This document shows, in pieces, positions 272 through 63,675 of a DNA stretch of 64,000 nucleotides. The stretch spans positions 4,461,001 through 4,525,000 of the forward strand of contig NZ_CP116967.1 of assembly GCF_032050975.1 (NCBI RefSeq), read 5' to 3'. The notes beneath the pieces are model-generated. The model had not been told where the DNA came from. It saw nothing but the letters and a program-made list of their open reading frames with translations, and searched no databases. A program made the position numbers and the translations under genes. This DNA comes from Candidatus Nitrospira allomarina (GTDB lineage: Bacteria; Nitrospirota; Nitrospiria; Nitrospirales; UBA8639). The number at the start of each line of letters is the position of its first letter. Position 1 is the stretch's first letter.

Positions 272-1636
272 TTATTCTTTCACGTACTCAGGTAACACAA
301 TTTTTTGACCTGGAAGAATGATATCGGGATCGCTGATTTGTGGGTTATGCCGTCGGAGCCATTCCACATATTGCCGGCTTGAGGAACCATAGGCTTCGTT
401 GGCAATTTGACTCAAATTATCCCCTTCTTTGACCGCCCTGGTAATTGGTGAACCCTGGCTTGGCTTTGAAGCTACCCCGGTTTGATCCCTGAGTTTACCA
501 TCAGACTTGGAGGTTTCTATTACCTTTTCGACGGATTTTTTTGTCAGACCGGAATCCACTCCCCCTTTATCCGCATGAGGAATGGGTCTTTCTATTTGAG
601 AGACAGATGAGGCCATAGGGATTGACTGCTCTTCAATTTGCCCTATGTTTTCTTCGGACATTTTTTCAGAGGAGGTCGCCCTCGCATTCTGGCTATCACG
701 TTCGCTCAAGCCTATTTGGGATACTCCCACGGTTCCAGGAAGGAATATCGGGCTTAACAAAAAAGCCCCAATTGCCAAAAGTATGATCACGGCAACACCG
801 ACCGCCCACTTCATAAGATAAGATGAACGAGAGCCATCCAAGTCAGCAAGAATTTCCCGCACCTCGCTTACAGAAACCGGTTTTTGTTGCCTACCATATC
901 CAGTGATCAGGGCATTATCGCAAAGAATATTAATTCTACGTGGAATGCCCTGAGCCTCGCGAATAATAAGCTTCATGGCTCCCTGCGTAAATAAAGGGGC
1001 CCCGGTGGTTGAAGACAGTGCAACCCGATGTTCAATATATGCTTGGCTCTCTTTGGGTTGCAGCGGGTGTATCGTTGCACGAAGGGCAATGCGTTGGTTC
1101 AAGGACTTCAAGGTAGGATGATTGAGTAATGCTGTTAATTCCGGCTGCCCGATTAAAACAATTTGGATAAGCTTGTCTGTGGATGTTTCCAAATTAGAGA
1201 GCAGCCGTAACTGTTCCAAGGTTTTAACCGGCATATTTTGAGCTTCGTCAATGACCAGCACAACCGTGCTGTCCGACCGGTATTCCTGAATCAATGCTTC
1301 CTGGAGTTGATTGACCATTTCAGCCGAATCTTCATGAGACGGAACAAGGTCAAGGCTTCGAAATATATCGGTCAGAAGCCCGTGAAATGATAAAACTGGA
1401 TTAAGAATGTAGACTGTTTTCTGTTTTCGGTCACTTGTCTTTTCAAGGTACGCACGAATAATCGTCGTTTTTCCTACGCCGACTTCGCCATATATGGCGA
1501 CAAAGCCTTTTCTTCTCTCAATTCCATAGATAATCGCCCCCATCGCTTCCTTATGGCTGGGGCTTAGATAAAGGAAATTTGGGTCAGGAGTAGTATGAAA
1601 TGGTTCTTTTTTGAGACCGTAAAACGCTAGATACAT
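272..1636 (-). CDS. ExeA/GspA-like secretion ATPase (PEP-CTERM-locus type) with transmembrane segment and C-terminal LysM
   Basis: A 454-residue AAA ATPase. Residues 1-30 carry the family opening (FYGLKKEPFHTTPDPNFLYL). Walker A is GEVGVGKTT at 50-58 and Walker B is VVLVIDEAQ around 125-133. An RRIN-type sensor motif follows near 235. A single membrane helix lies at about 275-297, followed by a Ser/Glu-rich linker and a LysM domain in the last ~55 residues (EGDNLSQIANEAYG ... LPGQKIVLP). Related ATPases occur beside exosortase/PEP-CTERM EPS loci and in ExeA/GspA, where a peptidoglycan-binding domain sits in the periplasm. Here LysM would play that role. The gene sits between wzz and the BY-kinase gene, 16 nt after wzz. 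I infer that it energises assembly or positioning of the envelope export complex; no direct evidence is visible. Confidence 0.82.
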   Translation of the reverse strand: MYLAFYGLKKEPFHTTPDPNFLYLSPSHKEAMGAIIYGIERRKGFVAIYGEVGVGKTTIIRAYLEKTSDRKQKTVYILNPVLSFHGLLTDIFRSLDLVPSHEDSAEMVNQLQEALIQEYRSDSTVVLVIDEAQNMPVKTLEQLRLLSNLETSTDKLIQIVLIGQPELTALLNHPTLKSLNQRIALRATIHPLQPKESQAYIEHRVALSSTTGAPLFTQGAMKLIIREAQGIPRRINILCDNALITGYGRQQKPVSVSEVREILADLDGSRSSYLMKWAVGVAVIILLAIGAFLLSPIFLPGTVGVSQIGLSERDSQNARATSSEKMSEENIGQIEEQSIPMASSVSQIERPIPHADKGGVDSGLTKKSVEKVIETSKSDGKLRDQTGVASKPSQGSPITRAVKEGDNLSQIANEAYGSSSRQYVEWLRRHNPQISDPDIILPGQKIVLPEYVKE

Positions 1637-1652
1637 AGTGATAAATTTCTGT

Positions 1653-3131
1653 TTACAGCTTTTGCCCGAAAGTAGCCAGGAGGGGGAGATTTAAATCGTT
1701 TGCCGCTTGTTCCGGGCGAGTATAGGCACCTTGAAAGTACTCTAGGAGAAGTCCAAATCCAGTTCCAGCCAATATCCCCAAAATAGCTCCCAAAGTTACA
1801 AGCAATATTGGAGAACGTCCCGCTGGCCCACCGGGTACCTCGGCGCGTTGGATTACACTAATGTTGGCCATTTTGAGCCGGTCCATTTCTTCAGATACAT
1901 TCGCTTCTTCTACTCGAGTAAGATACAAATTGTAATTTTGCTCATCTGCTGCTCTCTGCCGCTCAAGGACAATCAGTTCTTTATTTAATTCATCAAGCCT
2001 CTGGATTTTTTTGTCCAGATCCTCGATTTGAAGGGCAATCACCTGACTGCTTGCCTGGAGGGTCGTTGACTCAGACACGGCTCCCAGCCTCTCCTTTTCA
2101 AGCTCGCTGTACATCGCTTTCTTTCCGCTTGCTATGGTATTAGCGCGCTCGTTCTTCTGTTCGGCAAGAATAAACTGTTCCACCTGGTCAATTTCTTTTC
2201 GAAGGTTCAAAACAGGAAAACTAGTTTCGGTGTATTTTGCTAGAAGCTTTTGTTCTTCCCGTTTCAGAGCAAACAATTCCGCCTTGGCTTTTTCCAGATT
2301 ACCCCCTTCTTCCACCGTTGATACAGAAATATTATCGAGAATAGTTTTCATCTGAGTTTCCAGGGAAGCGATTTTACCTACCAATCCTTGCAGCTTATTC
2401 TTAGTCGTTTTGTATTCACTATCCAGTGTGGCCCGTTGATCCAGAAGACGGCGTTGTTGTTCGACAAGAGGGGAGGAAAGATCATGCCTATGCTTAAACG
2501 CCTGAAGATTTGCTTCCGCCTGTTCCAATTTCTCCTGGTAGGTATGTAATTGCTTCGTTAAAAACGAAGCCTTCGGATCGCTAAACACTTGAAGATGCTT
2601 CTCTTTCAATAAGTCAACAAGGAGATTGAGTGCTTCAGCTGCTACCTTAGGTCGGGGATTTAAATATGATATTTCAAGCACGCTCGAACCCTTGACCGGG
2701 GTGGGCAACAGATTTTTCATAAAAGTGGACACACCCTTCTCTAAAGGGTCTTGAATCTCCAATGAAGGATCCAAAAATTCCGGATAAACTTTTTCAACAC
2801 CTAAAGTACTCACGACCCGTCTTATGAGGTCTCTACTAGAAATGATCTCCATTTCTGATTGAAGAGCAGCCTCCTCATTATATTTAACAAATTGACCTTC
2901 TTTCCCTACTTCAGGACGGAATACATGTTCCCTCCCAACCTTCAAGAGCAAACTCGTTTTAGCCTCATAGAGAGGGACCAACGTAAAGACATACCCTGCG
3001 ACAATCCCAAAAACCAACAGAAAAATAGTGATTACCTTATTTTTATGCTTAAAGAGAGCGGTCAGGATATCTCGTAGACTTCCCAAGGGGTAAGGCAAAC
3101 CCTCATCCGCTGCATAAACTTCAGGTTCCAT
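1653..3131 (-). CDS. Wzz-type polysaccharide chain-length determinant (PCP family)
   Basis: A 492-residue inner-membrane protein. The first membrane helix is at about 33-53, followed by the Wzz domain (YEAKTSLLLKVGRE). A long periplasmic coiled coil fills about 170-420, and a second membrane helix at ~445-468 follows the Pro-rich PGGPAGRSP motif. The short cytoplasmic tail resembles the linker between Wzz and BY-kinase modules, but no kinase domain is fused; the kinase is the separate gene at the window edge. The start has a good ribosome site (AGGGA, 8 nt upstream), partly inside the end of the preceding gene, whose stop is 3 nt away, so translation is probably coupled. The family sets polymer length and bridges to the outer-membrane channel. 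The coiled-coil half is visibly related to the neighbouring hybrid protein. Confidence 0.88.
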   Translation of the reverse strand: MEPEVYAADEGLPYPLGSLRDILTALFKHKNKVITIFLLVFGIVAGYVFTLVPLYEAKTSLLLKVGREHVFRPEVGKEGQFVKYNEEAALQSEMEIISSRDLIRRVVSTLGVEKVYPEFLDPSLEIQDPLEKGVSTFMKNLLPTPVKGSSVLEISYLNPRPKVAAEALNLLVDLLKEKHLQVFSDPKASFLTKQLHTYQEKLEQAEANLQAFKHRHDLSSPLVEQQRRLLDQRATLDSEYKTTKNKLQGLVGKIASLETQMKTILDNISVSTVEEGGNLEKAKAELFALKREEQKLLAKYTETSFPVLNLRKEIDQVEQFILAEQKNERANTIASGKKAMYSELEKERLGAVSESTTLQASSQVIALQIEDLDKKIQRLDELNKELIVLERQRAADEQNYNLYLTRVEEANVSEEMDRLKMANISVIQRAEVPGGPAGRSPILLVTLGAILGILAGTGFGLLLEYFQGAYTRPEQAANDLNLPLLATFGQKL

Positions 3132-3134
3132 ATG

Positions 3135-4319
3135 TTATTTCCCTACAAAATTTCCTTCTGCTGCTATTGTGCCGGAATCTTCTCCAGGCACATTTGTTGA
3201 GCGAAGAAGGACGGCTACTTCGGGATTTTTGAGTTGCCCAGAATACGTCTTGATTAAAATCGCTCGAATTTGTTCTACAGTATGTCCAACAACAGTAATT
3301 TCTCCAACCAACTGCAAGGCGATCCGTCCATCAGGCCGGACTAGAACTGTTTCATTGAGTTCGGGATTAAAAAAGAATTTAATATCGAGCTGATCCCCGA
3401 CCTGAATTTGATAATCTTGTGGTGGGGTTTTACCTACTTTGGTGAGGTAATTGATGTAATTTTTTTCATCTGCTGTGACTTGGCGCCGAAGTTCATCGAG
3501 TTCCGGCCCCAAATTTCTCAGCCTATTCAGTTCCTTGTCCACTTCAGCAATTTGTTGCTTGATCACGCCACTTTGGGCTTCAGCCGAAACGAGGTCGGCT
3601 TGAGTGTGAAATAATTGCATTTCCATCTCAAGATAGAGCGGATTCTTGCCAGTGGAAACACTTCGTGCCACCTGAGACTCCTGTTCCTTTATGAACTGAT
3701 TAATCAATTCCATTTCTTTTCGAATTGATTGAACATGGGGGTTATTCTCGGTGTATTTGTTTAATAATTCCTGTTCTTTTAATTGGAGGCTCAATAAATT
3801 ATTCTTGGCTCCACCAACTACACCTTGCTCTGAAGCCGAACTTGATAGAGGAATCTGTTCAGGAATCTGGCTTATCTGATCCTGAATCCAGGCGAGCTTC
3901 TCTTGAAAGCCCTTTACTTGATTTTCGGCCTGCTTTAATGAGTCGTCCAAAGATTTACGCTGTTGAAGAAGATGATTCATTTGCGTTTCAATTAAAATTA
4001 TTCCATGCTTCCGTTGAAAATCTTGAAGACGTCCCTCGGATTCTTCCAGACTTTGCTGGTAAGAACGAAGTTGTTGCTTCATAATCGAAAATACCTGATT
4101 GTCGGAATTTTCAACATCTGCCGGACTCGAAGCAGTTCCGGTCACTGGTCCCCCAGGGTCCGCATAAGAGAAACCCTGGAAAGCCAGGGTACCCCCAAAC
4201 ACAATGATTACAAGTAAAAAAGACAATGAGATTGTCATAACTAGACTATGTCTGTAGAAAGGTCGAAAAGCTAATTGAGGCTTTATAATATTCACGGTAT
4301 TCCTTTCATCCCCTTTCAA
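3135..4319 (-). CDS. Hybrid protein: membrane-anchored Wzz-like coiled coil fused to a Wza-type polysaccharide-export domain
   Basis: A 394-residue protein with an unusual arrangement. Residues ~25-52 form one membrane helix or uncleaved signal. Residues ~75-300 are a Wzz-like coiled coil with the same motifs as the next gene (EQELLNKYTE, ADEKNYINYLTKV). Residues ~305-375 are a polysaccharide-export domain (YQIQVGDQLDIKFFFNPELN, then VRPDGRIALQLVGE) that is nearly the same as the corresponding part of the Wza-like lipoprotein at 4423-5184. It has no second transmembrane helix like Wzz, and the chain stops soon after the export domain, lacking the SLBB tail of Wza. It therefore looks like a gene assembled from parts of its two neighbours. 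It may tie the length regulator to the outer-membrane channel. The order wza - hybrid - wzz - ATPase - kinase indicates one operon. Confidence 0.8.
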   Translation of the reverse strand: MKGDERNTVNIIKPQLAFRPFYRHSLVMTISLSFLLVIIVFGGTLAFQGFSYADPGGPVTGTASSPADVENSDNQVFSIMKQQLRSYQQSLEESEGRLQDFQRKHGIILIETQMNHLLQQRKSLDDSLKQAENQVKGFQEKLAWIQDQISQIPEQIPLSSSASEQGVVGGAKNNLLSLQLKEQELLNKYTENNPHVQSIRKEMELINQFIKEQESQVARSVSTGKNPLYLEMEMQLFHTQADLVSAEAQSGVIKQQIAEVDKELNRLRNLGPELDELRRQVTADEKNYINYLTKVGKTPPQDYQIQVGDQLDIKFFFNPELNETVLVRPDGRIALQLVGEITVVGHTVEQIRAILIKTYSGQLKNPEVAVLLRSTNVPGEDSGTIAAEGNFVGK

Positions 4320-4422
4320 AGCAAATCTCTTAAAATGCTATAAACTCATTAATTATAGAAAAGGGCTGAGCCTGGAAATTCAAGTAGCGTTCTTACACTC
4401 TTACACTTGCAAACATATTGAC

Positions 4423-5184
4423 TTACCAAAATGACCTGGGCACATAGACCATATCAGACGGAAGCAGTCGAATATCCTGGCTCAAATCACCTCCATTGAG
4501 GGCCCCATCTAAATCCACATTAATGACAAACCTCTGACCATCTTGATCCTCTCGGATGACTTTTACGTCGCTTTTCTTCGCCGTGTCTTCCTTCATGCCC
4601 CCGGCACGCGCAATTGCTTGCAATACGCTTAGGGATCCAACCATTTCATATTCCCCCGGTGTTTTGACCTCTCCATCGACATAGATTCTATAAGGCTCCC
4701 GAATCGAACGAACAATGACGGCAATCTCTGGATTTTTTAGTTGCCCAACATATTTTTTCTCCAAAACGCCTTTGAGTTGCGCTGGGGTGAGATCTGCGGC
4801 TTTAACCTCATGAACTAATTGCAGGGAAATATGTCCATCAGGCCGCACAACTAAATCTTCTTCGTTTAACTCCGGATTAAAGAAGAATTTTACGCTCAAT
4901 TGGTCGCCGGGTTGGATGATATAACGCGGATCATCAACGCTAATTTGTTCATGCTCCTTCCCATTACCCATAGATGGATGTTCAACATTAGTTTTTCCAG
5001 CCAAAGCAGGGTAACCATTGGGTTCCAGGCTTGAAGCATCTACTGTTTTCATCCCCTTCCACCCTGAATTACACCCACACAGAAGAATAAATGTGGTCAC
5101 AACAATTAGAATTCTCATCCTCTTATATTCCTTCATAAAGTAACGAACCTCTCTGACCCCTCTATGGTCACTCAATTGCACCAT
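4423..5184 (-). CDS. Wza-like outer-membrane polysaccharide export lipoprotein
   Basis: A 253-residue protein. A hydrophobic signal (RILIVVTTFILLCGC) ends in a lipobox-like LCGC, predicting a lipidated Cys at about residue 38. The poly-export domain follows at ~82-160 (YIIQPGDQLSVKFFFNPELN; VRPDGHISLQL), then an SLBB-type domain at ~165-250 (VDGEVKTPGEYEM ... LLPSDMVYVP). It is short for Wza, with one SLBB repeat. Three Met codons compete as start: 5184 (AGGA, good spacing), 5136 and 5118. I kept 5184 for its ribosome site, although a start at 5118 gives the neatest signal peptide. The family forms the outer-membrane channel through which Wzy- or ABC-dependent polymers leave the cell. It is the first gene of the export operon. 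Confidence 0.85.
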   Translation of the reverse strand: MVQLSDHRGVREVRYFMKEYKRMRILIVVTTFILLCGCNSGWKGMKTVDASSLEPNGYPALAGKTNVEHPSMGNGKEHEQISVDDPRYIIQPGDQLSVKFFFNPELNEEDLVVRPDGHISLQLVHEVKAADLTPAQLKGVLEKKYVGQLKNPEIAVIVRSIREPYRIYVDGEVKTPGEYEMVGSLSVLQAIARAGGMKEDTAKKSDVKVIREDQDGQRFVINVDLDGALNGGDLSQDIRLLPSDMVYVPRSFW

Positions 5185-5525
5185 AAAACGTCCTGATAGA
5201 GGAACTTAAAATAGGACTTCCCCGCATCATTAAAAATTTTATATTTTTCATACACTTATAGCATCACGCGAAAAACTATTAACCCTCAATGTACCAAGTT
5301 TAGCTTAGGTACATTTATCAATATATTTTTCATCCGAACCATAAATGTTACCTCATAAAACGAATTTCTATCAAGACCGATAAAAATTGAACTTTATCCC
5401 CTGTCGGAAGTATTGGTCTGGAAATTTAGAACGACCCTGACTTTAACCCCTTTAAGTTCTCCACCAGAATCGAATCAACATGCCATCATCCACCATCTTT
5501 CAGTCGCAGGATCTAGCTTGCCTCA
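5185..5525. other. Intergenic region between the fusion gene and the wza operon
   Basis: This 341-nt AT-rich stretch has no convincing gene. It holds a possible promoter for the export operon (listed separately) and a small imperfect inverted repeat at 5291-5312 (GTACCAAG ... CTTAGGTAC, one bulged base). The repeat lies just upstream of the promoter candidate and could be an operator or a weak hairpin. A short plus-strand reading frame starting at 5480 runs antisense into the downstream gene and looks like chance. Confidence 0.4.
5255..5282 (-). promoter_or_regulatory. Possible sigma-70-type promoter for the wza export operon
   Basis: Read on the minus strand: a weak -35 TTAATA (5277-5282), a 16-nt spacer, then an extended -10 TGCTATAAG whose hexamer TATAAG is at 5255-5260. 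It lies about 70 nt before the wza start and is followed only by that operon. The -35 is poor, and in AT-rich DNA such matches occur by chance, so confidence is low. Confidence 0.28.
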
Positions 5526-6644
5526 TCAATGAATTTGATATTCCTCACTCATCGCTGCCATTTCCAAAATTTCAGGACGGTGAAAAGTTGGCACCAGCTG
5601 CTGAAGAAGAAGTTCAATCACCGAGGGAGAATGACCCAATATCTGCACATCCTCCAGCTTGCTCAGAATATTATTCAAGAATGCCGGATCAAGGGATTGT
5701 CCCGATTGAATCCTGAGGATTTTATCAATTGATGAAGGCACAGCCTGCTCACATTCCCCAACCAATTCTTCTTCGAGTTTTTCTCCGGGGCGAAGGCCGA
5801 TAAACTGGATAGGAATATTTTTCTCCGGCACATGACCAGAGAGTCGAATGAGGTTACGCGCAAGGTCCACCAGTTTAATTTGTCCTCCCATCTCCAGGAC
5901 ATAAATCGCCCCTTGCTCGCCAAGGGCTGCAGCCTGCAATACTAAGATCACTGCTTCTGGAATCAACATAAAGTAACGGCGCACCTCCGGATGCGTGACG
6001 GTGACTGGTCCACCGGCCTTAATCTGTTTTTGGAAGCGGGGTACGACACTGCCATTACTGCCCAAGACATTGCCAAAGCGAACGGTCAGAAATCGAGTTT
6101 GACTGTGACTCGCCATGGCCTGGACAACCAATTCCGCTACCCGCTTGGTCGCTCCCATGACACTGGACGGATTCACAGCCTTATCTGTCGAAATCAACAC
6201 AAAATGCTCGGCGCCGAAGTGGGCGGCCGCTTCGGCCACTAAACGGGTCCCCAGGATATTGTTCTTGAAAGCCTCCCCCGGGTTCACCTCCATTAATGGA
6301 ACATGCTTGTGAGCCGCCGCATGGAAGATTATTTCCGGGCGGTACGTTTTAAATGTCTCATGGAGACGGGGAACATCCGTGATATCTCCCAACACTTCAT
6401 GAAGCACACCGGAGTTACCTTGGTCGGTCAGCTCCCCTGCAATGGCGTATAAGCTATTCTCGTGCCGTTCATATAGGATAAGTGCTTTGGGGGCAAGCGC
6501 GACAATTTGGCGGCAGAGTTCCGAACCAATAGATCCGCCAGCCCCTGTTACCAAGACCCGCTTCCCATCGATTAAATTTCGCACTGGCTGAGGATCCAAC
6601 CCCACGGGGGGGGCGCTGAAGCAGGTCTTCAATTGCGAGATCAC
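5526..6644 (-). CDS. FlaA1/CapD/WbpM-type nucleotide-sugar 4,6-dehydratase, SDR half (separated by a frameshift from its N-terminal half)
   Basis: The 372-codon frame holds the catalytic SDR domain of the membrane dehydratases that act on UDP-GlcNAc-type sugars. The NAD-binding loop is VLVTGAGGSIGSEL at ~30-43. The active-site region is STDKAVNPSSVMGATKR, with Lys but Met where classical SDRs have Tyr, as described for WbpM. The GEKLEEEL motif follows near residue 285. Its own possible start is a GTG without a ribosome site, and the first ~20 residues match the family only after VGLDPQPV. This is therefore not an independent gene but the C-terminal half of the 846-residue protein that would be read from 8067 if the C8 run at 6606-6613 had seven C. 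Product as drawn: either made by slippage or dead. Confidence 0.85.
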   Translation of the reverse strand: MISQLKTCFSAPPVGLDPQPVRNLIDGKRVLVTGAGGSIGSELCRQIVALAPKALILYERHENSLYAIAGELTDQGNSGVLHEVLGDITDVPRLHETFKTYRPEIIFHAAAHKHVPLMEVNPGEAFKNNILGTRLVAEAAAHFGAEHFVLISTDKAVNPSSVMGATKRVAELVVQAMASHSQTRFLTVRFGNVLGSNGSVVPRFQKQIKAGGPVTVTHPEVRRYFMLIPEAVILVLQAAALGEQGAIYVLEMGGQIKLVDLARNLIRLSGHVPEKNIPIQFIGLRPGEKLEEELVGECEQAVPSSIDKILRIQSGQSLDPAFLNNILSKLEDVQILGHSPSVIELLLQQLVPTFHRPEILEMAAMSEEYQIH

Positions 6645-8067
6645 GGATTTGACTGATCGTGACTTTGCCTTCCAGGATATCGCCTAGGTTCGGGAGAGTT
6701 TTGATGCGAACGTTAAAGGGGGCCAGCAGTGCGGTAATATCTCGAAGAACCGCTGAATTTGTCCCAGGCAGGGCTACCAACACTTCCTCGGGTTTGTGCG
6801 TGTGAAGAATCCGTGACAGATCCTGGCGTGTTCCCAGAACTTTGATACCATGGATGCGCTTGCTTACTTTCGAGACATCATCGTCCACAAATCCAATGGG
6901 CGTATAGGAGGAAGTGGAATGTGATTGCATCTCCCGAACGATGTTTTCCCCTGCATCGCCGGCCCCAATTATTAGAACTCGTTTTGTCTTTCTCAGGACC
7001 TTCCGTTCCCGAAAGATTCGAACCGCAAGCCGGATCCCACAAAGAAACCCGATCAACAGGATACTATCGATAATAAAGATAGACCGGGGATAGCCGGTGA
7101 TACCGAATCCCCATTTGACGAGACCATAGAATACTATGGTTCCAGCCAACACCCCACCCGTAATTTTCTTTAAATCCCAAATACTAATATACCGCCACAG
7201 GCCTTCATTGAGGCGAAAGATCATAAAGGCAATCCCACGAATTACAAGCAGCCCTGGCAAAGTCTTGAGCAGAAGTTGGCTGGCGTCTTCGGGGATATGG
7301 CCGTCAAATCTCAACCAGAACGCCAGATAATAGGCCAACACAATCAGTGCCAGATCCAACGTAATAATGATGGGTCGCCGATATTTGGTAATAAGCTGGA
7401 AAATTACGGATCCTTCAAGAAAAGCCACCTCATCATGATTGTCACGATCGGTGACCTTTAAAATGACGCTTCGCAGGCCCAGCAGTTGCAATAACGTCTG
7501 GGCAATGACGGCAAGGTCAAATGCTAAAGAGGCATGCTCGATATATAATTTGGCTAATCGGATTTTTTCCGGCAGGATGGTATTCGTGTACTCATCTTCG
7601 GGTTTGTCTACCTTTCCGAGCATACCCTGTTCATCAATGTACTTCAGAGAAGCCAGGTCCGTTAAACCAGGCCGGACCGTCAAAACATCGTGATAGTCCT
7701 CTTTGAACTTTTCGACATAATAAGCCACCTCAGGACGTGGGCCGACCAGACTCATATCCCCTATCAAAACATTGAACAGCTGAGGAAGCTCGTCAAGTTT
7801 CAACTGACGCAAAAAACGTCCAATGCGGGTCACACGCGGATCTTCGCCGATGGTCAGCTCCCCTCCCTTTTGGGAGGCGTCCAATGCCATCGTGCGAAAC
7901 TTATACAGACAAAATGGCCGAAACCCACGACCCACGCGCACCTGTCGAAATAAGACAGGCCCTCGGGAATCCATTTTAATAAGGAGGGCGAGCACGACAA
8001 AGAGGGGGGTACACACCACTAACCCTAAAAACGCACCAAGAGTGTCAAACACACGCTTAGTCATCAA
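6469..8067 (-). CDS. Monotopic phosphoglycosyl transferase fused to the membrane/CoA-binding half of a CapD-type dehydratase (frameshifted before the SDR domain)
   Basis: The 532-codon frame has two parts. Residues 1-~205 are a WcaJ/PglC-like sugar-phosphate transferase: re-entrant helix at ~8-30, KFRTM, DELPQLFNVL and SLVGPRPE. It would load the first sugar phosphate on undecaprenyl phosphate. Residues ~225-345 are the four membrane helices, and ~365-480 the Rossmann domain (VLIIGAGDAGEN) that precede the SDR domain in FlaA1/WbpM proteins. Family-like sequence stops exactly at LLQRPP, where eight C shift the frame, and the last ~45 residues are unrelated to any domain. With seven C the reading continues RPPVGLDPQPV into the SDR frame, giving one 846-residue bifunctional enzyme that would make a modified UDP-sugar and transfer it. 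No flanking gene is needed to explain the break. Confidence 0.85.
   Translation of the reverse strand: MMTKRVFDTLGAFLGLVVCTPLFVVLALLIKMDSRGPVLFRQVRVGRGFRPFCLYKFRTMALDASQKGGELTIGEDPRVTRIGRFLRQLKLDELPQLFNVLIGDMSLVGPRPEVAYYVEKFKEDYHDVLTVRPGLTDLASLKYIDEQGMLGKVDKPEDEYTNTILPEKIRLAKLYIEHASLAFDLAVIAQTLLQLLGLRSVILKVTDRDNHDEVAFLEGSVIFQLITKYRRPIIITLDLALIVLAYYLAFWLRFDGHIPEDASQLLLKTLPGLLVIRGIAFMIFRLNEGLWRYISIWDLKKITGGVLAGTIVFYGLVKWGFGITGYPRSIFIIDSILLIGFLCGIRLAVRIFRERKVLRKTKRVLIIGAGDAGENIVREMQSHSTSSYTPIGFVDDDVSKVSKRIHGIKVLGTRQDLSRILHTHKPEEVLVALPGTNSAVLRDITALLAPFNVRIKTLPNLGDILEGKVTISQIRDLAIEDLLQRPPRGVGSSASAKFNRWEAGLGNRGWRIYWFGTLPPNCRACPQSTYPI
6606..6613 (-). repeat. Homopolymer run of eight C (minus strand) at the frameshift
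   Basis: The plus strand reads CAC, eight G, then CGCTGAA. Coding-strand translation is in the transferase frame before the run and in the dehydratase frame after it; removing one base restores a single frame. Mononucleotide G/C runs of this length are classic slipped-strand sites, and they are also the commonest place for sequencing indels. Confidence 0.9.
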
Positions 8068-21738: not shown

Positions 21739-23952
21739 TCACTGTTTGAGGATGACGGAATACATGCTGCCTCCACTACTGGCATTGCCCCCAAGGGTAA
21801 TCGTTCCGGCGGGAAAGGTCCGCACAAAAAGGTCCAGGGTCGTATCCGAGGTCACCAGATCCGCGCCCGTATCCGTAAAGATGCCCATCCACGAAGGCAG
21901 AGGGTGCCGCCCGTCATGGGCCACATAGACGGATACCGGTTGAGTGACCGTAAAACGGAGGAAGGCGGCAGTCGTGGCTGTCTTATCGGTGTTAGCCGTT
22001 TGGATATACGTGCCTCCCTGCACGATGGAAGGGACAGTTTTAAACGTATAGGCACGGTCGATATAAACTCGGCCCCCGGCTTGGAGACCCGAGGTGGGCA
22101 CCACGTACGCTTGGCCACTAGCAACCGTCAGATTCGAAATACTGACGGAGGAGGAAGAGGAGGCAGGAGGCGGCGGCGGGGGTGTGACGGTACCGCTCCC
22201 ACTCTGTGGTTTGACGACGACCGAATACATGCTGCAACATCCACCACTGGCATTACCCCCAAGGGTAATGGTACCGGCAGGAAAAGACCGCACAAAAAGA
22301 CTGAAAGTCGCATCCGAGGTCACAAGTTTCGCGCCGGTATTTGTAAAGGTGCTCAACCATGAGGGTTTCGAGGAAATTCGATCGCCATGAGCGACATACA
22401 CCAATACCGGTTGATTAACCGTAAAACGGATGGAAGCTGAATTGGTCCCCGCTTTGTCATCATTGGCGGTTTGGATATACGCACCTCCCTGCACGTTGGA
22501 AGGGACGGTCTTAAACGTATAGCCACGATCGATATAGACTCGGGCCCCGGCTTGGAGACCGGAGGCGGGCACCACATACGCGCGCCCACTGGCAACCGTC
22601 AGGTTCGAAATAATGCCTGAAGATGAAGTGGGGGAGGTCGGTGATGATGGTGGCGGGGTACTAGTCGACGGTGGTGGAGTACTAGTCGACGGTGGAGGAG
22701 TTGAATTGGCCGGCGGCGGCGTCCCATTGAAAGCAAAAGCTCCAATATCATAAGCATTGGAGTTCCTTGAAGCATAATCAAAATCATTTTTGACTTCGGA
22801 AAGAACCACACCGGCGGCAATGGCAAGACTTCCCTGTTGAAGGTGAAAGTCGCGGTTTTGGTGATTGGCATATTTAATGTCATTAATAGATGCGGCCACA
22901 TTCCCCTTATAACTTGCTTTATCCTCCCAATCTGCCAATCCGGTACCTGAATTTGTTGCAGCAACCAGGTTATTGAAAACTTGAGAACTTCCACTGCCCT
23001 TCGTAATGATTATCCCGTTACCCCCGTTTAAACTGGCAATGTTGTTCTTTATAAGAGAGTCTCGACTTGTGCTTCCCAACCATATCCCATACGAGGAATT
23101 AGCATGGACTGTATTGTTAAAAACTTTGGAGTTTGATGCTCCATAATTTACTTCTACCCCCATGATGTTTCCCCAAATAACATTATTAATGACAGAATTG
23201 TTAGTTCCACCGTAGACTCCAACTCCGGGTCCTTTACCGAATCGAGCATTGTCATAAATTCGGTTATTTGTAATCATATTATTACTTGGTTGGTTACTAC
23301 TGCTATACATATGTACACCCCAACCGCCATTTCTATAGATTGAACAGTCTTTGACGAGTATTTTGTTTCCGTCTAAATAAATACCATGTCCTCTGGCTGG
23401 AGTTACTCCATTATCATGGATTTTCAAGCCAATAAACTCAATATCATTCGAAATCCCTGTAAGGATTCCATTACTGTTAGCATTCATAATTTCGCTATTG
23501 AGAATGCGTATATGATGGCTTCGATGTCCTGTTTGAATTCCATTCGCGCCGCCTCTGGCATCAAAAACAAACCCTTCGACAATAACGTAGTGACTCCCAT
23601 CGGCAAAGTACAATGCAGAACGGTCACGGGCCGCTGTAATCACGACTTTTTCACTTGCGTACCTCTTGATTGAGACGGTTTGCTCCCAAGAATTTCCATT
23701 TGGAATTTTCGCAAGATTGTGGGACCCTAGATATGTGCCACCTCGCACAAACAACGTATCTCCTGGGATTAACACGCTGACTCCCCTTTCCAGAGTTCGA
23801 AAGGGTTCCTGTAACGTGCCACGGTTTCCATCGTTTCCATTGCTTGCAGCCACATAATAATTTGATGCCTTGGCTTCGCTGACATGGCTACCCATGACCA
23901 AGATACAAAAAAGAAAAACTTTCATAACCCATCGATTGCTTAAAATACTCAT
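21739..23952 (-). CDS. Secreted right-handed beta-helix protein with Pro-rich linker and two C-terminal adhesion-like modules
   Basis: A 737-residue secreted protein. The signal peptide is at ~10-28 (MKVFLFCILVMGSHVSEAKA). The beta-helix domain, ~30-405, starts YYVAASNGNDGNRGTLQEPF like the protein at 16681-18036 and carries many NNSVINN-type rungs. A linker with repeated TPPPSTSTPPPS follows (~410-440). The protein ends with two ~135-residue modules (~445-585 and ~602-737) beginning ISNLTVASG and ending FPAGTITLGGNAS...MYSV. The longest frame starts at 24102, but the ATG at 23952 has AGGAGG 7 nt upstream and lies after the predicted transcription start, so I use it. The module half is clearly richer in G and C than the helix half. 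It probably binds or modifies the cell's own polysaccharide; no active site is evident. Confidence 0.82.
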   Translation of the reverse strand: MSILSNRWVMKVFLFCILVMGSHVSEAKASNYYVAASNGNDGNRGTLQEPFRTLERGVSVLIPGDTLFVRGGTYLGSHNLAKIPNGNSWEQTVSIKRYASEKVVITAARDRSALYFADGSHYVIVEGFVFDARGGANGIQTGHRSHHIRILNSEIMNANSNGILTGISNDIEFIGLKIHDNGVTPARGHGIYLDGNKILVKDCSIYRNGGWGVHMYSSSNQPSNNMITNNRIYDNARFGKGPGVGVYGGTNNSVINNVIWGNIMGVEVNYGASNSKVFNNTVHANSSYGIWLGSTSRDSLIKNNIASLNGGNGIIITKGSGSSQVFNNLVAATNSGTGLADWEDKASYKGNVAASINDIKYANHQNRDFHLQQGSLAIAAGVVLSEVKNDFDYASRNSNAYDIGAFAFNGTPPPANSTPPPSTSTPPPSTSTPPPSSPTSPTSSSGIISNLTVASGRAYVVPASGLQAGARVYIDRGYTFKTVPSNVQGGAYIQTANDDKAGTNSASIRFTVNQPVLVYVAHGDRISSKPSWLSTFTNTGAKLVTSDATFSLFVRSFPAGTITLGGNASGGCCSMYSVVVKPQSGSGTVTPPPPPPASSSSSVSISNLTVASGQAYVVPTSGLQAGGRVYIDRAYTFKTVPSIVQGGTYIQTANTDKTATTAAFLRFTVTQPVSVYVAHDGRHPLPSWMGIFTDTGADLVTSDTTLDLFVRTFPAGTITLGGNASSGGSMYSVILKQ
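21742..22145 (-). repeat. Module A copy (second) of the beta-helix protein
   Basis: This encodes about 135 residues with the landmarks ISNLTVASGQAYVVP, VYIDRAYTFKTVP, QPVSVYVAHD, PSWM, LVTSDTTLDLFVR and FPAGTITLGGN. It is predicted to be all-beta. The same module occurs at 22204-22620 and three times in the phosphatase-like protein at 59413-63675. Confidence 0.85.
22204..22620 (-). repeat. Module A copy (first) of the beta-helix protein
   Basis: The same module as the preceding entry (ISNLTVASGRAYVVP, VYIDRGYTFKTVP, VYVAHGDR, PSWLSTF, FPAGTITLGGN). It is joined to the second copy by a PPPPPPASSSSS linker. The two copies differ at many positions, so this duplication is old compared with the identical copies in the phosphatase-like gene. 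Confidence 0.85.
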
Positions 23953-24070
23953 TACTGATCCTCCTGAACAAAAAAGAGACCGATGGTCCTGCTTCTGGAA
24001 AGCAAGAAAATCAATCAGGCATTTACTTCCATAGGAACCGGAGGTTGGATTCAGCAATATGTATTCCAAA

Positions 24071-24099
24071 ATTAATTTTTTAGTTCTGAAAAATGTCAA
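24071..24099 (-). promoter_or_regulatory. Sigma-70-type promoter for the 737-residue beta-helix protein
   Basis: On the minus strand, a perfect -35 TTGACA (24094-24099) is followed by exactly 17 nt and then ATTAAT (24071-24076), a 4/6 match to TATAAT. Transcription would start near 24064, leaving a leader of ~110 nt before the AGGAGG site and the ATG at 23952. It argues against the upstream in-frame ATG at 24102. Confidence 0.5.
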
Positions 24100-24525
24100 C
24101 ACCCTTGTTTATATACAAATTATTTTTTTTAGGGCCAAATTTGTCCAATATTCCTCAAGCCAATAATTGTAGGTCATAGCCTTCACCTGAATGATAAATT
24201 TCATAATTCTCCTACGGAAAATAATGCCTAGTAGCGCATTCGGCACAAGATCTGTGCCGGGAAAAATGACAACCAATCTGTGACAAGTTCACCGCCTATA
24301 CTGCATTCCATCCAACTAATGAAATTGTCAGAACTGTGCGGAACAATTGACTTTGGGTTTGCCAATGGGTCCCGCCATACGAAATTGGGCGATGACTGGG
24401 GCGGCAGAAATTTTGTGAAAGGTTTCTGGGCTGCAATAATGCAAAAGTAAAGGGACATTAGGCGGAGTGAAAAGCGTAATAGGGAAAAATTTGATCACAT
24501 TCCCTTAAAAAACCTTGGAATAGCA
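24100..24525. other. Intergenic region
   Basis: About 430 nt between the promoter above and the end of the next glycosyltransferase gene. It contains only a 76-codon minus-strand frame (24228-24458) without a ribosome site or recognisable product. I see no terminator or RNA. Confidence 0.4.
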
Positions 24526-31055: not shown

Positions 31056-31432
31056 AAAATAATCATTCCTCTCCGCACTCGAGATGGACAATCAGCCTTG
31101 GTTTCGTCCACAAGCCAACATCGTGGTAACGGTTAAGTCTTGCTCTGTCAGAGATTACGTCTACCCAAAAACATCATCTTTCTTGCAGGTATTACGTCGC
31201 TTGGGGACGGCCCTTTGGGGGGCCCATTATCGGTTGGCGGACAGGGGTTGTCCATCCTCATCCGCCATAAAAGGGGGCAAATTGGGTGAAGAGTGTCTTC
31301 ACCACGCTCACTTGCCCTAAAGTTAGGGAACAACCGGATTGTTTTGACATTAGGAATGCGTGGTTGGAAGTGCGCCTTTCCAGAAGTATTCTTAGCCTAG
31401 AAAATGGACACAAAAAGAAACCGCCTACCCAC
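31056..31432. other. Intergenic region
   Basis: This 377-nt stretch lies between the amidotransferase gene and the next transferase gene. Several short frames cross it on both strands, but none has a ribosome site plus a recognisable sequence. No terminator or promoter could be supported. Confidence 0.4.
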
Positions 31433-37319: not shown

Positions 37320-39161
37320 CTACTGATAATGTTTATTCATCCATAGCGATAAGCTGAGCAGAGGCCATAGCGCCCATGAAAGATCGCTCCCACCATTGAG
37401 GTGAAGATCATACAGCCGTCGAAGAGCTTGCTTGTTTACTTCCAACCCCAACATTTCATCTCGTTTTAGTAGACTTTCCTCAACCATTTCCCGGAGAGAA
37501 GTACGTAACCATGCTCCCATAGGTACCTCAAAACCCCGCTTTCCTTGAGTCTGTTGTTTAGTATATTTGGATAAGACCTGACGTAAAACCATCTTCCCCA
37601 TTTTTTGCTCCACATCAAGGCACTGGTGCCAGTCAGTTTGTGCCGCTATTTCAATAACTTCCTTATCCAGGAGCGGTACCCGAACTTCTAAGGAATGAAA
37701 CATACTTGCCCGATCCACTTTCATCAACACATAGGGCAAATGACATTCAAATTCAGCAATTCGGGAATATTGTGCTGCACGATCTGGATCGCAACTATGG
37801 TATTCAAAGGCTTTATAGGCATTTGGCCAAACTGGCAATGAAGGAAAAATTTGGTTCAACCATTTTTCAGAGAGATGGGTGAGCATAAGACGATGATAGC
37901 TTCCGAGAGAGCGTTGATTAAGGTGATTATAATTTCCATATTGGAGAACTCTCTTCAATCCCCGCCATACCCAACGCCACCAGAATGGGTACCGAAAATC
38001 ACCTGCATTCTTGACCAAAGAACCAAATCGGCCCGTATAGCCCCAAAACAATTCATCACCGCCATCACCGGAAAGCATAACCTTGTAATTTTGACTGGCC
38101 AGGCGGGATACCATCATGGTGGGGAATATTGAATAATCTCCAAACGGCTCTCCACAGCTTTCTATCACATCATCCAAGAAATCAAGCGCTTTGGCAGGAT
38201 CCATACATTCAATCCTATGTTTAACCCCAAACTCTTTCGCATAGGCCACGGCATCCTGTGTTTCATCTGTGGCTTTTTCACCGGTTCCGATTGTAAAAAC
38301 CTCAATGGGCCCTGCACTCACCGATCTCATTTTTGCTACGACCAGCGGTGAGTCAATACCACCGGAAAGGAATGCTCCGACGGGAACATCACTGATCAGA
38401 TGCCGTTTCACAGCTGCTGTGATCGTCAAATCCACCGCTTCCAGAGCCTCCTGGCCTTTCAATTTCGGGGAATGGTATTGCGGAAATGTAAAGTATTGTC
38501 CCTTTTCTACCTGTCCATCGGCCGTAAATTTGACCCAGGAACCAGGCTCAAGCATATTGGAATCCTGCATCAGGGCAAAAGGCGCAGGAATATAGGCCAA
38601 ACGCAAATAGAGACCAAGTGCTTCGGGGGAGACCTCAAGATTATGGCTCAAGGGATGTGCCAAAATTTGATTATATTGTGACCCAAAGACCATTCCTTCC
38701 GACTTCTTTAAATAATATAGCGGTTTCATGCCAGCATGGTCCCGAGCCAACAGCAATCGCTTTTCCACGGAATCAAAAAACCCCAAGGCAAACATCCCGT
38801 TAAAACGATCCAATGCGGTAACTCCCCATTCTATTAGGGCATACAGCACAACTTCGGTGTCACTTGTTGACCGGAATCGTACTCCACGGCCTTCTAAATC
38901 CTTTCGTAAGTGCTGGAAATTATATATCTCCCCATTAAAGACCAACGTATAGCGACCATTTTGAACGGTCATAGGTTGATGAGCATTCATACTTAAATCA
39001 ATGATAGCCAAACGGCGGAAAACCAATGTACACGTCCTATGATCGGTCCAGATTCCTTGGTCATTGGGTCCCCGACGTGCCATCAATGCACTAATCTTTT
39101 CCCAATCAGCCGCCGGCACCACCGCCTGATTGAATCGCAATTCTCCAGCTATTCCACACAT
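37320..39161 (-). CDS. Asparagine-synthase-like glutamine amidotransferase (AsnB type), second copy
   Basis: A 613-residue protein: MCGIAGELRFN with Cys2 as glutaminase nucleophile, RRLAIIDLS, NGEIYNFQHL, SDTEVVLYAL, then the synthetase domain with SGGIDSP at ~265 and SGDGGDELFWGY near 365. It has the usual family length. It is only distantly similar to the copy at 29151-31055, so the pair is more likely recruited separately than a recent duplication. In a polysaccharide locus it would amidate a uronic-acid or similar carboxylate; true asparagine synthesis cannot be excluded. The gene is followed by the GT2 after 410 nt and preceded by the kinase-like gene at 39228. Confidence 0.86.
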   Translation of the reverse strand: MCGIAGELRFNQAVVPAADWEKISALMARRGPNDQGIWTDHRTCTLVFRRLAIIDLSMNAHQPMTVQNGRYTLVFNGEIYNFQHLRKDLEGRGVRFRSTSDTEVVLYALIEWGVTALDRFNGMFALGFFDSVEKRLLLARDHAGMKPLYYLKKSEGMVFGSQYNQILAHPLSHNLEVSPEALGLYLRLAYIPAPFALMQDSNMLEPGSWVKFTADGQVEKGQYFTFPQYHSPKLKGQEALEAVDLTITAAVKRHLISDVPVGAFLSGGIDSPLVVAKMRSVSAGPIEVFTIGTGEKATDETQDAVAYAKEFGVKHRIECMDPAKALDFLDDVIESCGEPFGDYSIFPTMMVSRLASQNYKVMLSGDGGDELFWGYTGRFGSLVKNAGDFRYPFWWRWVWRGLKRVLQYGNYNHLNQRSLGSYHRLMLTHLSEKWLNQIFPSLPVWPNAYKAFEYHSCDPDRAAQYSRIAEFECHLPYVLMKVDRASMFHSLEVRVPLLDKEVIEIAAQTDWHQCLDVEQKMGKMVLRQVLSKYTKQQTQGKRGFEVPMGAWLRTSLREMVEESLLKRDEMLGLEVNKQALRRLYDLHLNGGSDLSWALWPLLSLSLWMNKHYQ

Positions 39162-59412: not shown

Positions 59413-62400
59413 TTGGAATATTTTAAAAAATCAGAGTGGTTTAGAGTGGCACTTGGCTGTGCGCTATTTGTGCTGGTGGCCTCTGTGGTGCCAGCCGCCG
59501 CAGCTATTGTGCGGCAACCTTACCTGCAGCTTGTCACCCCCTCCTCCATTACGATTGTCTGGCGTACTGATCTAAATTCAGCGGACAATAGCCAAGTAAA
59601 ATACGGCACGGTGTCCGGCTCCCTGACTCAAACGGCCACCGGCACAGCGGTCACCCGATCCGGGCTCAACGTCAAAGATCACATTGTCACCATTACGGGC
59701 CTGACAGCTGCCACGAAATATTTCTATAACGTCGGCACCGGGACTGACGGGATACAAGGGGGTGGCACGACCAATCACTTTTTTGTCACGGCGCCCCCCG
59801 TCGGGTCGGCTACGCCTATTCGGGCATGGGTGCTGGGCGACTCCGGCAACGCCAGTGTCAACCAACGGAATGTGCGGGATGCGATGCTGACCGAAACCGC
59901 ACTGAATCCCCCTGCTCCCAACCTAATCCTGCACATGGGAGACATCGCGTATGAAAGCGGGACCGACGCTGAATTCACCAGCAGACATTTTGCGATCTAT
60001 CAAGATATTCTCCGCCAGACGCCCCTCTGGCCGACCCTGGGCAACCACGAGGCCCTGTCGGTCACAACTTCCCTGGGCATTGGCCCCTACTACGAAGCCC
60101 ATGTCCTACCGACCAGCGGCCAAGCGGGGGGGGTGGCCTCCGGCACCGAGGCCTACTATGCCTTTGATTACGCCAATGTGCATTTTATTGTGCTGGATTC
60201 CATGGACAGTAGCCGGACGCCGGGCTCGCCGATGGTGACCTGGTTACAAAATGATCTGGCTTCGACCGGGCAGGAGTGGGTGATCGCTTTCTGGCATCAT
60301 CCACCCTATTCGAAAGGCCACGACTCGGACAATGCTGCCGACTCCGGGGGACGTCTGATCGACATGCGGGAGAAGATTCTCCCCATTCTAGAGGCTGGCG
60401 GAGTCGATTTGGTCCTTGCGGGACATTCGCATGCTTATGAACGATCCTATTTAATTGACGGTGCCTATGGCTATGGCACGGCCCCCAACTTTGCCACACC
60501 ATCGTTCAATACGCTTCTCGCCGATGGCCATATTCTGGATGCCGGAAATGGAAATCCCTCTGGCACAGGAGCATATCAAAAAAGTGCCGGGGGTGTTTCG
60601 CACGATGGGACGGTGTATGTGGTCGCAGGTCATGGGGGTAAAAGCATTGAAGCCACTGGATCCCATCCGGTCATGACAGTGGTTGACCTGGCTTATGGGT
60701 CGGTACTCTTGGACATTACGGGCAGCAGCCTCACGTTTCGGAATTTGCGGGCAGGCGGCGCCATCACCGACACCGTGGCTATTCAGAAAAGTCTGCCGCC
60801 CCCCTCCTCTTTAACCATTTCGAACCTGACCGTGGCCAGCGGGCAATCCTATATTGTGCCCGCTTCCGGCCTCCAAGCCGGGGGCACCGTCTATATCGAC
60901 CGCGCCTATACGTTTACCACGGTTCCTGCCAGCGTACAGGGTGCCACGTATATCCGAACCGCCAACAATGACAAAACAGCGACAACTCCGACTTTCCTCA
61001 GCTTTACGGTTAATCAACCCGTCTCCGTGTTGGTTGCCCATGACGTGCGTCTCACCCCTAAGCCGTCGTGGTTGAGCACCTTTACGGATACCGGGACAAA
61101 TTTGGTGACCTCGGATACCTCTCTCCGCCTCTTTTCGCGGTCCTTCCCGGCCGGGACCATTACTCTGGGGGGCAATGCCAGCGGTGGGAGCGGCAGCATG
61201 TATGCGGTCATCATCCAACCTCAGGGGGGAGGAGGACCGGTTAACCAAGCCCCGAATGGGGTCATCAACACCCCTAGCGGGGCGCAGACCATCCAGGTGG
61301 GCCAGACGGTCACCTTTACTGGAACGGGCACTGATCCTGAACCGAACTTACCCCTTACTCATCGGTGGACCTTTGGAGCTGGCTCCGGGATTGCTGATCG
61401 CACGGTAGAAGACCCCGGCGCCATAACCTTTACAACCGCCGGGGTGTTTACGGTGACCTATACGGTGACGGATGCCCTGGGATTGACCGACCCCACCCCC
61501 GCGACGGTTCAAGTGACGGTCCAGACACAAGGAACAGGCTTTACCGCCTACAATGACCTCGCATGGGGAACCGGCCAGCTCGAAGCGAATATCACAAAAA
61601 TCACCTCTCCGGTCGGAAACTCAGGCTTACCCAGCAGCGGCATACTTAAAGATTTCACCACCGGCCTCAATACCGGTGTGACCCTAGCCGTGACGGGCGG
61701 CGAATTTATTGGTAGTGGTCAAGCCACTCTGGGTGCAAACCCTACCATGGGAGACGCTTTCACCATCTTTAATGGAAAAGTCAGTACTCTTGGCGTTATC
61801 TCCTACGTCAATCAAATCACCAACTCGCTCCAGTTGAACTTTAGTGGGCTCAATCCCAGTAAGACCTACGATTTGTCCTTCTTTGCTCATCGAGATTTTT
61901 ACGGTTGGGATCGGGCCTCTCTCGTAACTCTTTCGGGGCAGGACGCGTTTACCAACACAAGTTCAGTCGCAAGCGATAATCCCAGTGAGGTCGGCGGAGT
62001 GATCTTCTCCGGACCGTCAGATACTTCCACTCGTCTACCGGCGGACAATGACAAGGGATACGTGGCGCGATTTAGCAATATTGAGCCAGGCAGTGATGGA
62101 GAGGTCGTGCTTACGATTAGCTTTGATGGAAACAGCGCCAGCCAATACACGGGGAAGTATGGCAGTGCAATCCGGCTGATGGAGTCCAGCGACGGAGGAG
62201 GACCGGTTAACCAAGCCCCGAATGGGGTCATCAACACCCCTAGCGGGGCGCAGACCATCCAGGTGGGCCAGACGGTCACCTTTACTGGAACGGGCACTGA
62301 TCCTGAACCGAACTTACCCCTTACTCATCGGTGGACCTTTGGAGCTGGCTCCGGGATTGCTGATCGCACGGTAGAAGACCCCGGCGCCATAACCTTTACA

Positions 62401-63675
62401 ACCGCCGGGGTGTTTACGGTGACCTATACGGTGACGGATGCCCTGGGATTGACCGACCCCACCCCCGCGACGGTTCAAGTGACAGTGTCTGGCACACCGC
62501 CCCCCTCCTCTTTAACCATTTCGAACCTGACCGTGGCCAGCGGGCAATCCTATATTGTGCCCGCTTCCGGCCTCCAAGCCGGGGGCACCGTCTATATCGA
62601 CCGCGCCTATACGTTTACCACGGTTCCTGCCAGCGTACAGGGTGCCACGTATATCCGAACCGCCAACAATGACAAAACAGCGACAACTCCGACTTTCCTC
62701 AGCTTTACGGTTAATCAACCCGTCTCCGTGTTGGTTGCCCATGACGTGCGTCTCACCCCTAAGCCGTCGTGGTTGAGCACCTTTACGGATACCGGGACAA
62801 ATTTGGTGACCTCGGATACCTCTCTCCGCCTCTTTTCGCGGTCCTTCCCGGCCGGGACCATTACTCTGGGGGGCAATGCCAGCGGTGGGAGCGGCAGCAT
62901 GTATGCGGTCATCATCCAACCTCAGGGGGGAGGAGGACCGGTTAACCAAGCCCCGAATGGGGTCATCAACACCCCTAGCGGGGCGCAGACCATCCAGGTG
63001 GGCCAGACGGTCACCTTTACTGGAACGGGCACTGATCCTGAACCGAACTTACCCCTTACTCATCGGTGGACCTTTGGAGCTGGCTCCGGGATTGCTGATC
63101 GCACGGTAGAAGACCCCGGCGCCATAACCTTTACAACCGCCGGGGTGTTTACGGTGACCTATACGGTGACGGATGCCCTGGGATTGACCGACCCCACCCC
63201 CGCGACGGTTCAAGTGACAGTGTCTGGCACACCGCCCCCCTCCTCTTTAACCATTTCGAACCTGACCGTGGCCAGCGGGCAATCCTATATTGTGCCCGCT
63301 TCCGGCCTCCAAGCCGGGGGCACCGTCTATATCGACCGCGCCTATACGTTTACCACGGTTCCTGCCAGCGTACAGGGTGCCACGTATATCCGAACCGCCA
63401 ACAATGACAAAACAGCGACAACTCCGACTTTCCTCAGCTTTACGGTTAATCAACCCGTCTCCGTGTTGGTTGCCCATGACGTGCGTCTCACCCCTAAGCC
63501 GTCGTGGTTGAGCACCTTTACGGATACCGGGACAAATTTGGTGACCTCGGATACCTCTCTCCGCCTCTTTTCGCGGTCCTTCCCGGCCGGGACCATTACT
63601 CTGGGGGGCAATGCCAGCGGTGGGAGCGGCAGCATGTATGCCGTCATCGTTCAACAACAGAGCCCACCCCAATAA
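59413..63675 (+). CDS. Secreted purple-acid-phosphatase-like metallophosphoesterase with repetitive adhesion-like C-terminus
   Basis: A 1420-residue secreted protein. Signal peptide at ~1-31 (VALGCALFVLVASVVPAAAA). A fibronectin-like N-terminal domain as in purple acid phosphatases is at ~33-120. The catalytic domain, ~133-440, has D143 in LGDSGN, D177 in GDIAY, N211 in GNHE, H295/H296 in WHHPPY, H338 and H340 in GHSHAYERS, i.e. the complete two-metal set. Then come module A1 (465-607), PKD-like P1 (608-706), a unique beta domain (707-929), P2 (930-1031), A2 (1032-1174), P3 (1175-1276) and A3 (1277-1420). The start is TTG without a clear ribosome site; no better start keeps the signal. The DNA is visibly more G+C-rich than the locus. 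Likely role: extracellular phosphate-ester hydrolysis at the cell surface or matrix; no membrane anchor is visible. Confidence 0.82.
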   Translation: MEYFKKSEWFRVALGCALFVLVASVVPAAAAIVRQPYLQLVTPSSITIVWRTDLNSADNSQVKYGTVSGSLTQTATGTAVTRSGLNVKDHIVTITGLTAATKYFYNVGTGTDGIQGGGTTNHFFVTAPPVGSATPIRAWVLGDSGNASVNQRNVRDAMLTETALNPPAPNLILHMGDIAYESGTDAEFTSRHFAIYQDILRQTPLWPTLGNHEALSVTTSLGIGPYYEAHVLPTSGQAGGVASGTEAYYAFDYANVHFIVLDSMDSSRTPGSPMVTWLQNDLASTGQEWVIAFWHHPPYSKGHDSDNAADSGGRLIDMREKILPILEAGGVDLVLAGHSHAYERSYLIDGAYGYGTAPNFATPSFNTLLADGHILDAGNGNPSGTGAYQKSAGGVSHDGTVYVVAGHGGKSIEATGSHPVMTVVDLAYGSVLLDITGSSLTFRNLRAGGAITDTVAIQKSLPPPSSLTISNLTVASGQSYIVPASGLQAGGTVYIDRAYTFTTVPASVQGATYIRTANNDKTATTPTFLSFTVNQPVSVLVAHDVRLTPKPSWLSTFTDTGTNLVTSDTSLRLFSRSFPAGTITLGGNASGGSGSMYAVIIQPQGGGGPVNQAPNGVINTPSGAQTIQVGQTVTFTGTGTDPEPNLPLTHRWTFGAGSGIADRTVEDPGAITFTTAGVFTVTYTVTDALGLTDPTPATVQVTVQTQGTGFTAYNDLAWGTGQLEANITKITSPVGNSGLPSSGILKDFTTGLNTGVTLAVTGGEFIGSGQATLGANPTMGDAFTIFNGKVSTLGVISYVNQITNSLQLNFSGLNPSKTYDLSFFAHRDFYGWDRASLVTLSGQDAFTNTSSVASDNPSEVGGVIFSGPSDTSTRLPADNDKGYVARFSNIEPGSDGEVVLTISFDGNSASQYTGKYGSAIRLMESSDGGGPVNQAPNGVINTPSGAQTIQVGQTVTFTGTGTDPEPNLPLTHRWTFGAGSGIADRTVEDPGAITFTTAGVFTVTYTVTDALGLTDPTPATVQVTVSGTPPPSSLTISNLTVASGQSYIVPASGLQAGGTVYIDRAYTFTTVPASVQGATYIRTANNDKTATTPTFLSFTVNQPVSVLVAHDVRLTPKPSWLSTFTDTGTNLVTSDTSLRLFSRSFPAGTITLGGNASGGSGSMYAVIIQPQGGGGPVNQAPNGVINTPSGAQTIQVGQTVTFTGTGTDPEPNLPLTHRWTFGAGSGIADRTVEDPGAITFTTAGVFTVTYTVTDALGLTDPTPATVQVTVSGTPPPSSLTISNLTVASGQSYIVPASGLQAGGTVYIDRAYTFTTVPASVQGATYIRTANNDKTATTPTFLSFTVNQPVSVLVAHDVRLTPKPSWLSTFTDTGTNLVTSDTSLRLFSRSFPAGTITLGGNASGGSGSMYAVIVQQQSPPQ
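60805..61530 (+). repeat. First A-P unit of the phosphatase repeats (module A1 then PKD-like P1)
   Basis: Module A1 spans 60805-61233 (143 codons, SSLTISNLTVASGQSYIVPA to the glycine-rich end). P1 spans 61234-61530 and starts GPVNQAPNGVINTPSGAQTI with the PKD-like core THRWTFGAGSG and TVTDALGLTD. Comparison by eye shows no base difference from the later copies except at the ends, where P1 continues GTGACGGTCCAGACA while P2 and P3 continue GTGACAGTGTCTGGC. Confidence 0.88.
62200..63669 (+). repeat. Two tandem copies of a 735-bp P-A unit (P2-A2, P3-A3)
   Basis: P2 begins at 62200 and P3 at 62935; A2 begins at 62506 and A3 at 63241, so the unit is exactly 735 bp (245 codons). By eye the copies are identical base for base over almost the whole unit; only the last ~20 bases of A3 differ (GCCGTCATCGTTCAACAACAG). 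A1-P1, separated from this block by the unique domain, has the same sequence. Recombination could add or delete whole units in frame. Confidence 0.9.

Follow-up and report, generated by a model that had tools for sequence, protein, structure and literature searches.

The closest described counterpart of the module reported here is the C-terminal domain of PDB 6HPD, a GH2 enzyme titled beta-glucuronidase (its molecule name is beta-galactosidase), where the domain occurs as a single copy at the end of a glycoside hydrolase. Another solved counterpart, by fold, is the C-terminal domain (residues 733-871) of the GH138 enzyme BP0997 (6HZE/6HZF). Judged by the titles of their entries, the enzymes that carry these domains act on uronic-acid-containing glycans (beta-glucuronidase for 6HPD and rhamnogalacturonan II for GH138). 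A looser likeness, in the general beta-sandwich arrangement and in the association with enzymes, exists with CBM27, CBM4, CBM35, CBM77 and similar modules; their VIA Z scores of 3.6-5.3 may mean a mere common arrangement, and the modules described below have no Pfam match to them.

In the window, that is, the whole stretch of 64,000 nucleotides of Candidatus Nitrospira allomarina that was analysed, a module of ~138 aa is found in five copies, three of them in a purple-acid-phosphatase-like protein and two in a beta-helix protein. The features concerned are the following:

59413..63675, + strand: purple-acid-phosphatase-like protein, secreted, 1420 aa (TTG start, hydrophobic N-terminal signal)
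59515..60438, + strand: purple acid phosphatase N-terminal domain and calcineurin-like catalytic domain (PF16656 5.5e-13, PF00149 2.3e-15, PDB 6git 2.5e-18)
60805..61218, + strand: module copy 1 (sequence comparison)
61228..61527, + strand: PKD domain 1, repeat unit D2 (Pfam PF18911 1.1e-28, three stretches; repeat analysis)
61525..62202, + strand: central stretch of ~225 residues between PKD domains 1 and 2, without a match in Pfam and PDB sequence searches
62194..62493, + strand: PKD domain 2 (Pfam PF18911; repeat analysis)
62506..62919, + strand: module copy 2 (identical to copy 1 over 402 compared bases)
62929..63228, + strand: PKD domain 3 (Pfam PF18911; repeat analysis)
63241..63654, + strand: module copy 3 (399/402 identical to copies 1 and 2)
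21739..24102, - strand: right-handed beta-helix protein, secreted, 787 aa, with two C-terminal modules (PF13229 4.3e-22)
22210..22614, - strand: module copy 4, beta-helix protein (sequence comparison)
21745..22149, - strand: module copy 5, beta-helix protein (sequence comparison)
272..8067, - strand: exopolysaccharide export and chain-length genes of XrtA/PEP-CTERM type (NCBIfam, mostly sub-cutoff)

Like the 6HPD domain, the module takes a terminal position on an enzyme; unlike it, the module is present in tandem copies on a phosphatase or a beta-helix protein. In the phosphatase, the motifs GDSGN, GDIAY, GNHE, WHHPPY, and GHSHAYER can be read in the catalytic part, so that the metal-ligand motifs of purple acid phosphatases (GDxxY, GNHE/D, the histidine, and GHxH) are all present together with the N-terminal domain. 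The catalytic domain is followed, in this order, by module, PKD, central stretch, PKD, module, PKD, and module. All five module copies and every landmark listed in the original prediction were found again when the sequence was read directly: ISNLTVASG is located at residues 469, 1036, and 1281 of the phosphatase and at residues 498 and 655 of the beta-helix protein, and each copy has PSWL or PSWM, FPAGTITLGGN, and SMY.V. Between the two proteins the copies share 68-75% of their amino acids (BLASTP E 2e-68 and 4e-71), far beyond chance, and 76-77% of their DNA. Within the phosphatase gene the DNA identity reaches 99-100%, and for this reason the window holds only three independent module sequences.

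The module had been described as one to which no family name could be attached, and the searches bear this out, since Pfam, NCBIfam, and PHROGs cover none of the window modules and none of these collections holds a known family that spans the module fully with a non-binding role. Scans of 28 module relatives against Pfam and NCBIfam yielded chance-level matches only. A weak match to an NCBIfam alpha-galacturonidase model (3 members, best E 0.013) was set aside, since it was absent in ten members scanned singly, a set that may have excluded the original three. Matches in the PDB at E 0.1-2, among them coronavirus proteases and fibronectin, were regarded as noise. The Pfam model of CBM77 (PF18283) is matched by no module, nor by anything in the whole genome of the organism at E up to 1, and PDB 5fu5, which we take to be CBM77, reaches a VIA Z of only 3.8 against the module model. 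Likewise, no module matches malectin/CBM57 (PF11721), and in a related Rufibacter protein the malectin domain (755-929) is separate from the module (937-1081).

The search of domain databases with a module profile, proposed together with a structure prediction, did match PDB 6HPD. A profile of three sequences alone already finds its C-terminal domain (E 1.2e-10), and one of 28 sequences aligns positions 12-138 of 138 to residues 857-987 with an E of 1.6e-28, at ~25% identity. An AlphaFold model built with 9 sequences (pLDDT 77, pTM 0.76), which is all beta except for one short helix of at least 4 residues, superimposes on 6HPD 848-988 over 135 of 139 residues (VIA Z 17.8, 2.1 A; Foldseek TM 0.81, E 4e-8). 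Both whole-domain homology and fold thus place the module in the family of this domain. The GH138 domain shares the module fold over 123 residues (VIA Z 10.8, Foldseek probability 1.00) with 16-17% identity, and a profile search gave no sequence match to it at E up to 1. Below it the VIA ranking shows a gap, with further structures at 5.7 and lower and CBM27 at 5.3. The module is therefore without a name, yet its fold has already been solved; it represents a genuine domain family, so far undescribed, within a kind that is already known, the CBM-like accessory domains.

The distribution of the module is uneven. The genome of this bacterium (4.55 Mb, one contig) carries 14 copies spread over six genes. 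One of these genes (L027:3559-6058; C1 ~1140.06-1142.56 Mb as given) is interrupted by a change of frame inside its first module, with partial matches to model positions 1-31 and 22-144, and a similar four-module gene is open in one frame in the genus-mate G319; the interruption is either genuine or an artefact of the assembly. Copy numbers range from 0 to 14 per genome within the genus, and the module is present in 19/270 genomes of the class and in 11/396 of a phylum sample, the named relatives in the phylum being Nitrospirales bacteria, including NPIRA03. Outside the phylum the searched material consisted of plasmid records and the PDB, and the plasmid records revealed relatives in Monoglobus pectinilyticus, in a Rufibacter GH2-malectin protein whose gene neighbourhood includes acetylxylan esterase, sialate O-acetylesterase, and RhaT (a rhamnose symporter), and in the C-terminal part of a Persicobacter GH2 protein. 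In Nitrospirota, the partner domains are apiosidase-like, subtilase, DUF4185, FG-GAP, LamG/cadherin, fn3, PKD, and beta-helix, and the relatives as a whole support the earlier statement that the module accompanies different catalytic or binding domains. Its occurrence on GH2 and apiosidase-like proteins is that of a CBM in the usual sense, a discrete and non-catalytic domain on carbohydrate-active enzymes, whereas its hosts in the genome studied here, the phosphatase among them, differ from these relatives. In viruses, a tblastn search of a phage collection returned no module match, and viral contigs gave pattern matches but no module relative. A protein of the alga-infecting Tetraselmis virus 1 (BFVD A0A2P0VNA9) has a predicted structure that resembles the module (Foldseek TM 0.81, 29% identity), and this viral relative might bind a host-surface glycan. 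A predicted protein of Synechococcus phage S-SRM01 is also similar (Foldseek TM 0.61, E 1.5e-3); its kinship to the module is uncertain because a profile search of that genome found no sequence match.

The module had also been proposed to move as a cassette, and this is mostly not supported. In three congeneric genomes the phosphatase modules are spaced identically (567 and 245 residues), both modules of the beta-helix gene are retained, and the two genes lie ~39 kb apart according to their coordinates. A recently mobile cassette spreading between genes would account for the patchy presence of the module in the class and for the GC3 values of the beta-helix and some fn3-type genes, where the module (0.58-0.67) exceeds the preceding part (0.32-0.41). 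However, such a cassette is very improbable in view of the conserved architecture, spacing, and gene positions, of the DNA identity of only ~76% between the modules of both window genes and of only 71-75% for those of two other gene families in the same genome, and of a tree in which modules cluster largely by host gene family. As for composition, the module was said to be G+C-rich in both proteins, which holds for the beta-helix gene (55.9% in the module region against 41.7% in the beta-helix part) but not as a contrast in the phosphatase, whose catalytic part itself has 56.7%; indeed, neither the phosphatase nor most other hosts show more than a small GC3 contrast, if any. In the genome of the organism itself, GC3 is 0.58-0.63 in the module and 0.38-0.41 in the N-terminal part of the beta-helix and fn3-type genes. 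High module GC3 may be explained by an old foreign origin or by GC-biased gene conversion just as well as by mobility.

On the other hand, the copies within the phosphatase gene have been kept alike. The three copies of one of the congeneric genomes (G000) cluster together in the tree with high support, as do those of G319, and their module Ks within the gene is 0-0.08 in both species, whereas between species it is 0.34-0.91 (0.29-0.71 for the host domain). In the third genome (G191), copies 2 and 3 do not differ from each other, and copy 1 is 87% like them. Since the copies of the first two species group by species and show low within-gene Ks, this likeness is the result of concerted evolution rather than of recent duplications that took place separately in each species; the mechanism would be recurrent gene conversion of the PKD-plus-module unit, which would keep the phosphatase copies alike. 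In comparisons with Ks above 0.2, the module Ka/Ks is 0.09-0.25, which indicates purifying selection. A protein-protein interaction module, by which secreted proteins would assemble with one another in the outer layer in a homotypic or cohesin-like manner, would also agree with the homogenised copies within a gene and with the fourteen copies that six genes of a single genome carry; this reading is nevertheless unlikely, as the close structural relatives are borne by enzymes in genomes with no known partner set.

The genomic context of the beta-helix gene bears on the role proposed below. The exopolysaccharide genes at 272..8067 share strand and locus with the beta-helix genes, and the window also contains sugar-transferase genes; TIGR03025, a general exopolysaccharide sugar-transferase model, scores above its cut-off, while the XrtA/PEP-CTERM-like export, chain-length, and sugar-transferase genes score below the cut-offs of those models. 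Two beta-helix proteins, at 16681-18036 and 21739-24102, lie within this XrtA-like exopolysaccharide locus, and both may, by sequence, modify the polymer as lyase or epimerase, a role hinted at by N-terminal sub-cutoff matches to the pectate lyase PelN. Two asparagine-synthase-like amidotransferases are also encoded in the polysaccharide locus (29151-31091 and 37320-39161), the first of which resembles XrtA/PEP-CTERM amidotransferases below the cut-off.

The module forms a domain of its own, evolves under purifying selection, occurs beside catalytic or adhesive domains that are unrelated to one another, and has the fold of a C-terminal domain of carbohydrate-active enzymes. It is best explained, by a modest preference on our part, as a non-catalytic CBM-like beta-sandwich accessory domain that would tether secreted enzymes to polysaccharide. 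A carbohydrate- or matrix-binding role, as originally suggested, fits because the relatives with solved structures form the C-terminal ends of carbohydrate-active enzymes, and polysaccharide binding, by which secreted enzymes would be kept in the matrix or near a substrate, is the likeliest role on account of the fold, the partners, and the exopolysaccharide export-type genes in the window. Binding would involve conserved residues, and seven of these (D32, K57, D80, R82, W89, N124, and Y133 in module numbering) are invariant or nearly so and are mostly placed by the AlphaFold model in loops or loop edges; they are candidates for the site, chosen by conservation rather than from a mapped surface. 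Against binding, the module has one tryptophan and no established binding platform. The ligand would probably be acidic, although this is a guess from the enzymes of the relatives, given that the copies in the phosphatase carry only a slight positive net charge (7 K+R vs 5 D+E). In this way, the module would hold the beta-helix protein and the phosphatase, both secreted, on an extracellular polymer. A plausible candidate for this polymer is the exopolysaccharide produced by the locus that contains the beta-helix gene, and tandem copies would raise avidity.

A conserved C-terminal domain of a carbohydrate-active enzyme can also be purely structural. The module could accordingly be a spacer or domain-packing unit that stabilises its neighbours and sets their distance from the cell with no ligand of its own, as its terminal position in 6HPD and Persicobacter, its mixture with PKD, fn3, and Ig-like domains (typical spacers), and the fixed spacing in the phosphatases of three species would allow. 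We consider this doubtful, because a mere spacer would not usually conserve polar and aromatic residues in its predicted loops and because the module attaches to many unrelated partners. Returning to the CBM-like reading, a more specific version can be offered only tentatively and is itself rather unlikely: the module would found a new CBM family for uronic-acid- or rhamnose-rich polysaccharide which, in a presumably chemolithoautotrophic Nitrospirales lineage, has expanded to 14 copies, which gene conversion keeps uniform inside genes, and anchors the phosphatase and other enzymes in the bacterium's own exopolysaccharide matrix.

These observations are of significance for annotation and for biology. 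This domain is present in a solved structure and in carbohydrate-active enzymes of several phyla with no Pfam or NCBIfam model, and naming the family would provide an annotation for the ends, now unassigned, of many secreted enzymes. The fixed spacing combined with homogenised copies clearly exemplifies concerted evolution within one bacterial gene. Finally, if glycan binding is true, the module would show how a matrix-forming bacterium retains phosphate-releasing enzymes in its matrix.
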